Origin: Promethearchaeota archaeon | GTDB taxonomy: Archaea; Asgardarchaeota; Lokiarchaeia; Sigyniarchaeales; SOKP01 | NCBI GenBank assembly: GCA_014730165.1 | Contig: WJIS01000079.1 | Coordinates: forward strand, 1 to 54,313 | DNA length: 54,313 bases | Direction of reading: 5' to 3' | Shown here: piece by piece, positions 3,516 to 35,287 of the stretch | How the letters are laid out: each line of letters opens with the position of its first letter | Position numbering within the stretch: the first letter of the stretch is position 1 | Notes under the pieces: model-generated | What the model was told of the DNA's origin: nothing | Databases searched by the model: none | The model's input: the letters and a program-made list of their open reading frames with translations, nothing else | Position numbers and translations under genes: made by a program

Positions 3516-4814
3516 TTAGTTTATTAACGTATGGCAAATAGGACATTCTTTCCAATCCTTAGAAACTTTTGCCTCACATTTAGGATTTGAACAAATAACT
3601 AATTCCTCCTTTTTAAGCATTTCCTGCTTATACCTTATACTTGCATTATTAGCTTCGTCTATACTTTTTAAAAAAATGTCATTATCTAATGAATTTTTAC
3701 AACGAGCACAAGATTTAGAAAAATCTTGACTAAGTATGGTTTTTCCGCATTTTGGGCAAAATCCTTTTACTTTATCAAGTATCTCATCTACTTCTCGATC
3801 CTTTGTATCTGCAATTGACACAATATTTAAATCTTCATACTGTTCAGAACCTTGGATAATATTTATTAAAGAATTTGTTCCCTCTTTGGATTTTGACAAT
3901 TTCTCAGACTGAACAACTAAATCCATTAAAAATGTTTTTGATATTCCCATATCAATTGCTAGTTTAATAATAAGTTTTTCAATTAACATCTCAAAAGGTT
4001 CCCGAATTCTCTCCCATATTAAATCCATATTTATTAATTTCTTAGCTATTTTCTCAGCCATCTTATCTAAATCATAGATTTGTCTGTATCCTTTTAGATT
4101 TATATGTATGATTTCTTCGATAAGATGATCACCTATCAACCTAAATGTGCTTGTGCCCAGGAGGTCTTCTGAATGGAAAAAGAATACATCATTTTCTCGA
4201 TTAAACATGTAGAATCCCAAATGACTGGACATTATTTTATCCACATAAAAATCGATTCTTAATTTTTTAACCTTATAATGTTTACAAAATTCATTAATTT
4301 CAAATTTATATTCACGCGTAAGCACAGAATTCAGAAAAATATAAAAAAGAGCTAAAAATAATTCACGATTCTGGTTAATCTCAAAGAATTTATCTCCAAT
4401 TTTGGATATCATCCGAAGAATTTGAAATAATATTGACTCTTCAATACCTATTTGTTGATAAAAACTAATTAATTCCGTAGACTTTAGTATAACATCGTTA
4501 ATTTCGTTTATATAGAATATTTCTTTTTCCCTATTATCATAATCTTCATTTAAACCTTCTATTCCCTTTTCTGTGATAAAATAATGCGGTGCACCTTGAA
4601 AGATGCGTTTTTCTATATTATTTTTTTGGAGATGTAATTTTATATATTTTGAAAGAGTGGAACGACTCATATCAGATTTTTCTTGTAAGTTAGAGAATCT
4701 ATGCGGTCCTAAGTTCCTCAAGACAAACAGGATTCGCTTATCATATTCATCCATATCTGAGGCTATTTGGATGACTTTCTTTTCAGTTGTATTACTGATA
4801 TTTGATTGTTCCAT
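3516..4814 (-). CDS. Winged-helix DNA-binding protein with C-terminal zinc ribbons
   Basis: N-terminal HTH (LRNLGPHRFSNLQEKSDMSRSTLSKYIK); C-terminal CPKCGK..CARC and CSNPKCEAKV..CPIC. Confidence 0.7.
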   Translation of the reverse strand: MEQSNISNTTEKKVIQIASDMDEYDKRILFVLRNLGPHRFSNLQEKSDMSRSTLSKYIKLHLQKNNIEKRIFQGAPHYFITEKGIEGLNEDYDNREKEIFYINEINDVILKSTELISFYQQIGIEESILFQILRMISKIGDKFFEINQNRELFLALFYIFLNSVLTREYKFEINEFCKHYKVKKLRIDFYVDKIMSSHLGFYMFNRENDVFFFHSEDLLGTSTFRLIGDHLIEEIIHINLKGYRQIYDLDKMAEKIAKKLINMDLIWERIREPFEMLIEKLIIKLAIDMGISKTFLMDLVVQSEKLSKSKEGTNSLINIIQGSEQYEDLNIVSIADTKDREVDEILDKVKGFCPKCGKTILSQDFSKSCARCKNSLDNDIFLKSIDEANNASIRYKQEMLKKEELVICSNPKCEAKVSKDWKECPICHTLIN

Positions 4815-5332: not shown

Positions 5333-7378
<2,046 letters not shown>

Positions 7379-7385
7379 TTCTTTA

Positions 7386-7395
7386 TTTTTTTTTT
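7386..7395 (+). terminator. Poly-T tract just downstream of ligA, likely archaeal terminator
   Basis: Run of ten T directly after the ligA stop codon. Confidence 0.4.
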
Positions 7396-7537
7396 ATAAA
7401 TGTTGATAACTTTCTATTTAGTTTATTTTTTTTATACATATTTTATCGAACTGGAGTATGTAATGATCGACAAGAGTATATTAATATTAAAGATTCCTCT
7501 ATAAACTCAAGTATATACAATTTAATGGTGGAAAATT

Positions 7538-7789
7538 ATTACACAATATAGATTTCGTTTAACTGGAGTTCCTCCAGATCAGGCTATAAAACAAATAGAA
7601 GTGGACCCAAATCAATCAATCGCTGAAATAAAGAAAACAGTTCAACGTGAATATAAACTTAACCCGATCCTGGCTATCCAATTCATTTTTAAAGGAAAGG
7701 TTCTCCCTGATGATTTAAAGTTCTCAAAAGTGGGTATCCATCCCAAAAAAGACGTTATTACCGTTATGGCAACACAAGCAGGCGGATAA
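7538..7789 (+). CDS. Ubiquitin-like beta-grasp protein ending in Gly-Gly (start codon probably AUU; ORF track starts at GTG 7601)
   Basis: In-frame translation (I)TQYRFRLTGVPPDQAIKQIEVDPNQSIAEIKKTVQREYKL..IQFIFKGKVLPDDLKFSKVGIHPKKDVITVMATQAGG*; alignable by eye to ubiquitin across the full length. Confidence 0.85.
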   Translation: MTQYRFRLTGVPPDQAIKQIEVDPNQSIAEIKKTVQREYKLNPILAIQFIFKGKVLPDDLKFSKVGIHPKKDVITVMATQAGG

Positions 7790-7962
7790 GTAATAGTAAC
7801 CTTTCTATTTCATTTTATTTTTATTTTTCTTTTCTTCAAAAAGGTTTATTCTAATCCTAAAAAAATTAAAAATTTCTATGCAAAATATTTTGAAATCAAG
7901 AAACTTAATGGTAATATGATTCACTTTTAATAATCATAAAGAAAAAACATTTAAAATAAATT

Positions 7963-8667
7963 TTAATTCTCGTTGAAGGTCTTATCCTTTAAATCCTCAT
8001 CCTGTTTCAATTTGGGTTTTTCAACGATTTCAAATAAATCATTGGGAGTATATTCAGGACGAAAGGATTTAAATTCAATATCTTCAGAAATCTCAATAAA
8101 TTCATCCTTCTCGGTAAGATCAGATTGCTCTGTTTGATCTTCAGCTGTACTAGTTAATATCTTTCCTGTTCTAAGTAAATCTTCTTGAAATTCTTTAAAT
8201 CCCTCACCAGTTTTAGCAGATAATTCAAAATATGTCATACCCTTAGATTTAGCATATTCGATTCCTTCATCTTTTCTAATTGCTCGATTTTTAATATCAA
8301 CTTTATTCGCGAGAAGATAAAACTTTGAAACCCTCTCTGTATTGACCATAGAAAACCAAGAGTCAATGTTCATATAACTTGGGAACCATTCTACCGAATA
8401 TACAAGGATTATGATATCTGCATCGGCAAAAAAGGTATCTTGGAAACTTCGAAATTGTTCTTGTCCCGCAAGATCCCAAATTACTGCTTTCCCATCTTTT
8501 TCTGTAATTTCAAACGAATGGAATTCAATCGCAGTAGTCATCTGAAGTTTTTCTTCAGAATTAAGAGATCCATTCAACCTCTTTGATATGGTTGTCTTTC
8601 CTGTAGCTCCATCTCCGGCTATAACTATTTTAAATACTTTTTTATCTGATAATTGTTTTACCATCAT
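7963..8667 (-). CDS. Ras/Rab-like small GTPase
   Basis: G1 GDGATGKTT, G3 WDLAGQEQF, G4 NKVD, G5 SAK; about 170 aa GTPase core plus acidic tail without C-terminal Cys. Confidence 0.92.
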   Translation of the reverse strand: MMVKQLSDKKVFKIVIAGDGATGKTTISKRLNGSLNSEEKLQMTTAIEFHSFEITEKDGKAVIWDLAGQEQFRSFQDTFFADADIIILVYSVEWFPSYMNIDSWFSMVNTERVSKFYLLANKVDIKNRAIRKDEGIEYAKSKGMTYFELSAKTGEGFKEFQEDLLRTGKILTSTAEDQTEQSDLTEKDEFIEISEDIEFKSFRPEYTPNDLFEIVEKPKLKQDEDLKDKTFNEN

Positions 8668-15037: not shown

Positions 15038-15191
15038 ATAAATAATTCAACTATATTTTGAGTAATCTATGTGATTTAATATTATATTCAAAAACATAAA
15101 TACTTCATTTTCTTCAACCCAAATATTATCTATTGTTAAAGAAGATAAAGAATTATATGTGAAGAAGATAAGAGGTGATAATGATTAATTA

Positions 15192-15229
15192 TTCAAATTA
15201 CATTAACTTATTTAAATTATGTTGACTTA
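15192..15229. repeat. Imperfect two-copy 19-bp tandem repeat upstream of a small ORF
   Basis: ttcaaattacattaactta / tttaaattatgttgactta (15/19). Confidence 0.45.
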
Positions 15230-15274
15230 ATTTTAGGCAATAAACAAATTGCTTTTGCTAGTGTATTAAATATT

Positions 15275-15463
15275 ATGGTGTGGGGAGGTTCTTTAAACTC
15301 AAAAGGTTCTGATTATCTGAAAAAGCTTCGGGAAGCAGATAAAGTAGTAGGTTTTTTAGATAGGATTAAGGAAAAACTGAAACCGGAAGAAAAGTCCCAT
15401 ATTAAAAAGACGATCGACATAATTAGTGATTATGTGAATAGATTAACCGAGTCAAAAGAATAA
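15275..15463 (+). CDS. Small hypothetical protein (62 aa)
   Basis: ORF MVWGGSLNSKGSDYLKKLREADKVVGFLDRIKEKLKPEEKSHIKK; helical composition, isolated between convergent genes. Confidence 0.45.
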   Translation: MVWGGSLNSKGSDYLKKLREADKVVGFLDRIKEKLKPEEKSHIKKTIDIISDYVNRLTESKE

Positions 15464-33789: not shown

Positions 33790-33859
33790 TTAAGTATCGT
33801 CTACAAAAAAATTAGAATTAATTTATTGAAATTAATTTTAAAATAAGAGGCGTTCCAAT

Positions 33860-35287
33860 ATCACGGATAAAATTGAATATCTTTGCACTAATTGCAATCA
33901 TAGGATTATAAGTACGAAGATCGAGTACAAATGTCCAAAATGTGATAATTTATTCTTAGTTAACACAGATTTGGACAAATTTAAGACTTTCTATGATAAA
34001 GACCCGAAAATAGAAAAATTTTGGGACTTTGTGGAACTGTTTCCCTTTTTAAATCGAAATTATATTGTTAGTCTCGGAGAGGGTATGAGTCCTTGTAAAC
34101 GATCTAAGAAATTTCATGAAATTTTAGAAATCACGAATTTGTATTTTAAAGATGAAATTCATAATCCTACAAATTCATTTAAAGATAGAACCGCTGCATT
34201 ACTGATTTCTCATTCAAGGAATTTAGGATATGATAAAGTAGTATGTGCTTCAAATGGAAACCAAGGGGCATCAATAGCGGCATATTCCTCTTTAGAGGGA
34301 ATGAAATGTGTTAATTTCGTTCCGAAGAATATTGATATTGGTAAAAAAGCTCAAATGATTGCGAATAATTCTGAAATAATTACGGAAGGTGAAACTGTTG
34401 ACGATTCTATCCAGAAAGTTTTAAGTAAGGATTATATAGAATTTTATCAATGTACTCCAGAATTAAATCCCTTAACAATTGAAGCTCAAAAAACAATTTC
34501 ATTAGAAATTTTTCAGCAGATTGGTCAAATAGATTCTATAATCACTCCGATGGGGAGTGGAGGTTTAATGGTAAGTTTATGGAAAGGATTTAAAGAATTA
34601 TTTGAGATCGGTTTAATCAAAAAGATTCCTAGAATAATAGGTGTTCAATCGCAAATATCTTCGCCAATAGTGAATGAAATAAACAAGAAGATTGTTCATA
34701 ATCAAACTAATTACACCACAAAATCCCATGCTTTAGGCATCCTTGTTAAAAATCCTTTTTATAAAGAACTCTGCAAAGAAATTATCAAAAACACTAATGG
34801 TTTCGCAGTTGCTATATCAGAAGGTGTTATGTTAACGTTTGCTGAGGAACTTGCCAGAATAGAAGGAATTTTTGCTGAACCTGCTTCTGCCTTAACGATT
34901 GCTGCCTTGAGTCAATTAAGAGAAGAAAACAAATTTGAAACGAATGAAAAAATTGTATGTATAATTACTGGATCTGCTATCAAAACACCTTATGTCTTAG
35001 AAGCCTTGTCAAATAGAGCAAAAACTGCTGGAATGGGTAGTCTTTTAAGCAGTAAATTAAAAATTTTATCACAAATTTCGATATCTAAAAAAAAAGGATT
35101 ATATGGGACTAAATTAAAGGAGATGATAGGTTCCATTAGTCTTGCTGCAATTTATCAACATTTAAAAGAATTAGAAGAGAAAAATTTAATTGTAAGAAGA
35201 AAGGAGGGGAAGACAGTACTTTATACTATTACTGATAAAGGAAAAAAGGTTTTAGAAGCTTTAGAAACTTTGATTACTTTATTTTAA
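33860..35287 (+). CDS. Threonine-synthase-like PLP enzyme with N-terminal zinc ribbon and C-terminal winged helix (start probably AUC; ORF track starts at TTG 33971)
   Basis: Zinc ribbon YLCTNCNHRI..YKCPKCDN; PLP motifs DEIHNPTNSFKDRTA, ASNGNQGASIAAYS, MGSGGLM; C-terminal LKEMIGSISLAAIYQHLKELEEKNLIVRRKEGKTVLYTITDKGKK. Confidence 0.87.
   Translation: MTDKIEYLCTNCNHRIISTKIEYKCPKCDNLFLVNTDLDKFKTFYDKDPKIEKFWDFVELFPFLNRNYIVSLGEGMSPCKRSKKFHEILEITNLYFKDEIHNPTNSFKDRTAALLISHSRNLGYDKVVCASNGNQGASIAAYSSLEGMKCVNFVPKNIDIGKKAQMIANNSEIITEGETVDDSIQKVLSKDYIEFYQCTPELNPLTIEAQKTISLEIFQQIGQIDSIITPMGSGGLMVSLWKGFKELFEIGLIKKIPRIIGVQSQISSPIVNEINKKIVHNQTNYTTKSHALGILVKNPFYKELCKEIIKNTNGFAVAISEGVMLTFAEELARIEGIFAEPASALTIAALSQLREENKFETNEKIVCIITGSAIKTPYVLEALSNRAKTAGMGSLLSSKLKILSQISISKKKGLYGTKLKEMIGSISLAAIYQHLKELEEKNLIVRRKEGKTVLYTITDKGKKVLEALETLITLF

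Follow-up and report, generated by a model that had tools for sequence, protein, structure and literature searches.

Predicted AUU initiation of a ubiquitin-like gene and a candidate class of near-cognate-start genes in Lokiarchaeia

At which codon does translation begin in a ubiquitin-like (Ubl) gene whose frame opens without a canonical start? The question is posed by contig WJIS01000079.1 of a Promethearchaeota archaeon (assembly GCA_014730165.1), analyzed here over its full length of 54,313 nt, referred to as the window. A sequence-only reading had proposed an AUU start at one of two adjacent ATT codons, 7535 or 7538, and had named an indel or frameshift from an upstream ATG as the alternative. 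Its description of the region is correct. The stop codon TAA is followed by TGG TGG AAA ATT ATT ACA CAA TAT AGA TTT CGT TTA ACT GGA, and ATG, GTG and TTG are absent from the frame up to GTG 7601. The Shine-Dalgarno (SD)-like GGTG, announced at 4-8 nt before the ATT codons, occupies 7527-7530, 4 nt upstream of ATT 7535 and 7 nt upstream of ATT 7538. The features of the locus are collected in Table 1.

Table 1. Coordinates of features at the Ubl locus of the window.
Feature	Position	Strand	Basis
Ubl coding sequence, predicted ATT start 7538-7540, 83 aa, C-terminal ATQAGG followed by TAA	7538..7789	+	Pfam, AlphaFold2, Foldseek, ortholog start alignment
Putative near-cognate start codon ATT	7538..7540	+	Aligned with sister-species ATG; ATT/ACG in Lokiarchaeaceae genomes
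Shine-Dalgarno-like GGTGG, 6 nt 5' of the start	7527..7531	+	GGTG complementary to the 16S 3' end; duplex -6.2 kcal/mol
In-frame TAA, bars any in-frame start further upstream	7523..7525	+	Sequence
Out-of-frame mini-ORF ATG GTG GAA AAT TAT TAC ACA ATA TAG, not the Ubl start	7525..7551	+	Sequence; no ortholog start aligned
GTG, first canonical codon in frame (residue/codon 22), rejected as start	7601..7603	+	Fold model, orthologs

The encoded protein belongs to the ubiquitin family PF00240 (E 1.9e-10, 40.8 bits against a gathering cut-off of 25.4; Pfam). An AlphaFold2 model built from 26 orthologs reached a pLDDT of 92.3 and places strands at residues 2-8 and 17-22. Foldseek matched the model to ubiquitin (1ubq, TM 0.77/0.83), identifying the beta-grasp ubiquitin fold, and further to SUMO, NEDD8 and the Caldiarchaeum ubiquitin 6fnn. 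The C-terminal GG is invariant among orthologs, and a gene for an E2 is present in the same genome. The gene is predicted to encode a ubiquitin-type modifier that would undergo conjugation. An Rfam search of window positions 7000-8200 yielded no match.

Many orthologs, e.g. L004, L005 and L018, carry one or two residues past the GG (GGI, GGF, GGEQ), so that trimming would be needed ahead of conjugation. The genome of the window harbors a second Ubl domain (C234:489-731, L002), which lies within a 452-codon open frame and shares about 54% identity with the window Ubl; in genome G003, a Ubl domain is located within a frame of 4221 codons. Directly upstream of the Ubl gene, the window encodes a NAD-dependent DNA ligase of bacterial type, LigA (5339-7378, + strand); a match to LigA lay beside Ubl in just 7 loci. 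In the window, LigA separates the Ubl gene from that of an HTH-like protein (3516-4814, - strand); by tblastn, the HTH-like protein was matched at 90 of the searched Ubl loci.

Ubl orthologs were taken from whole genomes and contigs; the Lokiarchaeaceae set comprises 49 copies, paralogs included. The ortholog starts align at window position 7538, those of a few orthologs from other families being shifted by a single codon in one direction or the other. This places the start at the second ATT and not at 7535. The codon at this position is ATG in 29 of the 49 copies, ATT in 15, ACG in three and TTG in two. Nine ATT copies occur in genus g8, three in g4 and one each in g6, g2 and g1, the last being the window itself. 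The other four genomes of g1 have ATG at this codon; ATT in the window is a single-lineage state within its genus. On a ribosomal-protein tree of 30 genomes, the start changed between canonical and near-cognate at least four times, counted irrespective of direction. In nearly all ATT/ACG copies an in-frame stop is found 2-9 codons upstream, usually 2-5, often within the SD itself (GTGTGATAAAAA ATT). No canonical codon intervenes between stop and start in 17 of these 18 copies; the exception is the copy of genome G081, in which a pair of TTG codons occurs at a long distance upstream.

The codons ahead of GTG 7601 have a coding pattern of variation. Comparison of the 18 near-cognate orthologs over codons 2-22 gives 19 codons that differ in synonymous ways only, two that include an amino-acid change and no invariant one. 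The synonymous-only variation indicates that these codons are translated. Pairwise differences by codon position amount to 364/17/1619 in codons 2-22 and to 882/907/685 in the 36 nt upstream of the start. All 15 AUN starts of this set are ATT; internal isoleucine codons switch among ATA, ATT and ATC.

SD pairing was calculated against the 16S 3' end GGATCACCTCC, taken from the relative G064. The GGTGG of the window corresponds to GGGTGTGAT in relatives, and at least 4 nt of SD occur at similar spacing in 18/18 near-cognate Ubl orthologs. Mean pairing is -8.3 kcal/mol in these versus -4.4 kcal/mol in ATG orthologs (p 1e-6, the species being non-independent). Within genus g8, ATT copies range from -5.1 to -10.9 kcal/mol, ATG copies from -0.9 to -3.8 kcal/mol. 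Unambiguous long ATG genes (342, from G064 and G022) average -3.2 kcal/mol versus -2.4 kcal/mol for shuffled sequence, and ten near-cognate examples, picked from the further genes described below, average -7.5 kcal/mol. SD motifs have been described as rare in Lokiarchaea (PMC7531240, PMC12993045). Judged from these pairings, strong SD motifs accompany near-cognate starts, and ordinary ATG genes of Lokiarchaeia mostly do without them.

Taken together, the position of the ortholog starts, the upstream stops, the synonymous variation and a strong SD at near-constant spacing support the AUU start that had been suggested. The probability that Ubl translation starts at AUU 7538 is put at about 85%. 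An ordinary ATG miscalled as ATT, with G as the true base, would agree with the ATG in other genomes of the genus. It is improbable, for 14 other species likewise have ATT where this codon aligns, and the ATT starts of aIF1, E2, GTPase and PPAT within the same genome make an ATG-to-ATT assembly error unlikely. Initiation at ATG 7525, connected to the Ubl frame by a +1 frameshift or by an indel of the assembly, derives its appeal from that ATG lying only 13 nt upstream, where a one-base difference would yield an ATG-started frame. The codon is indeed out of frame and opens a nine-codon mini-ORF running only to its TAG. However, the start of the orthologs lies 13 nt past this ATG and in the frame already open here, near-cognate orthologs are without a comparable upstream ATG, and the sequence upstream of the Ubl start is not conserved in frame; the frameshift or indel is highly improbable. 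Membership among frameshift genes was rejected because a conserved upstream out-of-frame start is absent from orthologs, which start in frame at 7538. The least credible proposal, with a chance close to nil, has the protein start at GTG 7601 and the frame before it open by chance. That codon is the first canonical one in frame, but the 21 residues ahead of it hardly change among orthologs, their codons varying synonymously, and they make up two strands of the fold, which a start at GTG would remove as had been foreseen. It is matched by the start of 0 orthologs, the outcome that the proposed ortholog comparison had been meant to settle.

The AUU start of the Ubl gene is not isolated. Start codons other than AUG, GUG or UUG at a conserved start position were found for Ubl, aIF1, E2, an Arf/Ras-like GTPase and PPAT. 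The tallies for the latter four genes, all within Lokiarchaeaceae, were read by eye from sequence contexts, with no script; among the reciprocal best hits, many antisense shadow ORFs were likewise removed by eye. Lokiarchaeaceae aIF1, represented in most genomes by a single SUI1 match, is near-cognate in 28 of 29 readable copies (ATT 22, ATA 5, ATC 1, GTG 1), with AAAGGTTGTGATAA GAC AGC ATT AAA GAC GAC as an example of the context. In some copies of aIF1, as of the other three genes, a GTG or TTG stands in frame a few codons ahead of the near-cognate codon, a potential alternative start. Elsewhere among Asgard families, aIF1 starts with ATA and an SD in several, with GTG or CTG in others and with ATG in others again. 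The UBC-type E2 (PF00179, E 7e-26) starts near-cognate in 16/26 copies (ATT 10, ATC 6, ATG 8, TTG 2); an in-frame GTG just upstream could serve as start in seven of the 16. The GTPase, which in many genomes shares a contig with E2, is near-cognate in 25/26 (ATT 18, ATA 6, ACG 1, ATG 1). It is usually preceded by GGTGA, whose TGA stands in frame two codons upstream of the start; four of its ATT starts are preceded by a GTG in frame. PPAT is near-cognate in 17/28 (ATT 15, ATA 2, ATG 11), and at least two of these cases have an in-frame TTG upstream.

In nine clusters of control genes, near-cognate starts amounted to 3/218. All belonged to ribosomal protein eS4 (ATA, 3/26), and the other eight clusters had none. 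The eS4 cases come from three g6 genomes (L164, L166, L167), where ATA follows AGGAGTGA. The genome of the window has ATT starts in all five genes: Ubl, aIF1 (L215), E2 (L324), GTPase (L425) and PPAT (L398, with a TTG upstream). This recurrence points to a putative class of genes in Lokiarchaeia that start at near-cognate codons (AUU, AUA, AUC, ACG) and are cut short by annotation.

A scan covered 1,524 gene models from Lokiarchaeial DNA alone (G064, 1.2 Mb; G022, 0.8 Mb; the window). Forty-seven models appeared to be coding upstream of any canonical codon. The codon placed by an SD was ATT, ATA or ATC in 16/28 such ORFs, compared with a background of 17% (p 1.4e-6). As a rough range for Lokiarchaeial genomes only, near-cognate starts would account for 1-3% of genes. 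Some of the flagged ORFs may be fragments or selenocysteine (Sec) genes. Two SelD-like ORFs of G064 (C1 near 1127250 and 1128519) have an upstream in-frame TGA before an S/N-C-K motif and are possible selenoproteins; not all flagged ORFs can therefore be equated with near-cognate starts. A tRNA-Sec gene is located at L239:19262-19354. As a general explanation, a selenocysteine reading of upstream TGA is superfluous, the upstream stops being a mix of TAA, TAG and TGA. An initiator tRNA was not found in the scanned part of G064, which is uninformative because introns are common in archaeal tRNA genes.

A PALP-type enzyme with a C-terminal winged helix (Pfam; window 33842-35284, + strand) has no canonical codon among its first 43 codons. 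An SD-like AAGAGGCG stands ahead of its ATC/ACG/ATT codons, and the homolog in G022 has GTG. At window 15170-15463 (+ strand), the SD AGAGGTGAT is followed by an ATG whose frame is closed after 14 codons; another frame, read from an ATT, stays open over about 90 codons. Either initiation at a near-cognate codon or a frameshift would account for the pattern.

For the Ubl gene, the SD motif GGTGG would bring AUU into the P site of the 30S subunit. This codon is presumably read by the initiator Met-tRNA despite a mismatch at the third position, and the protein would still begin with methionine. Rejection of AUU complexes by aIF1 would turn the AUU start of its own gene into a negative feedback. 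Other AUU genes, including those of ubiquitin and E2, would fall under the same control. Eukaryotic eIF1 (SUI1) is reported to autoregulate through its own poor start context, in work by Ivanov of 2010 to which PMC6237735 refers. Bacterial IF3 autoregulates via the ATT start of infC and represses the GTC start of Streptomyces sigR (PMC5472188). Archaeal aIF1 destabilizes non-AUG complexes, according to a passage of PMC6237735 citing earlier work on S. solfataricus. Control by aIF1 is proposed because of these archaeal aIF1, eIF1 and IF3 precedents, which stem from other lineages and partly from in vitro experiments. That aIF1 regulates AUU-start genes, itself included, is given slightly less than even odds. 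More tentatively, Lokiarchaeia may possess two initiation modes, with AUG genes mostly devoid of SD beside an SD-dependent near-cognate regulon (AUU/AUA/AUC/ACG) that includes aIF1, ubiquitin modifier and E2, and in which the level of aIF1 would set the output of the ubiquitin system. If this is true, the IF3/infC type of control would have its archaeal equivalent, made from an eIF1 homolog.

The near-cognate starts may also be real yet unregulated, a strong SD making it cheap for AUG to drift to AUU, AUA or ACG and to return. For Ubl, such drift, compensated by the SD, is the chief competing explanation, a serious candidate at somewhat below an even chance. The switches of the Ubl start on the 30-genome tree favor it, as does the trade-off between SD strength and start codon in genus g8, where ATT copies have the stronger motif. 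The alternation of ATG with ATT/ACG in Ubl fits drift as well as it fits regulation. On the other side, aIF1 and the GTPase keep a non-AUG start in nearly every genus even though a single mutation would give AUG, and this near-constancy argues against drift for those two genes. The ATA, CTG or GTG starts of aIF1 in several other Asgard families also speak against it.

Near-cognate initiation as such is already known, and the Asgard occurrence, a variant of it, has apparently not been reported in the open literature: no report was found in open-licence full texts, among which few subscription papers or preprints are covered. Gene finders limited to ATG, GTG and TTG would cut or miss the N-termini of important genes such as ubiquitin, E2 and aIF1 in the archaea closest to eukaryotes. 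In a lineage regarded as poor in SD (PMC7531240, PMC12993045), the motifs would emerge as accompanying weak start codons. A testable question is raised as well: whether autoregulation by start-codon stringency in the eIF1/aIF1 family is pre-eukaryotic.

In its ubiquitin fold, its C-terminal GG and the UBC-type E2 in the same genome, the window gene resembles the ubiquitin systems of Asgard archaea (PMC9192718) and the ubiquitin of Caldiarchaeum (6fnn). It differs in the near-cognate start codon; start codons are not mentioned in the text of PMC9192718. Eukaryotic eIF1 is a homologous fidelity factor that likewise has a weak start in its own gene. There, the weakness resides in the context of an AUG reached by scanning, whereas here a near-cognate codon is combined with a strong SD. 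Bacterial infC with its AUU/AUC start is a further parallel. In both, the gene of a start-fidelity factor begins with a near-cognate codon, in 28/29 Lokiarchaeaceae copies in the case of aIF1; further genes with non-canonical starts can come under the same control, as does Streptomyces sigR (PMC5472188). In Lokiarchaeia, by contrast, the factor is aIF1 acting with archaeal ribosomes, the class holds ubiquitin and E2 genes, and the regulation is a proposal.
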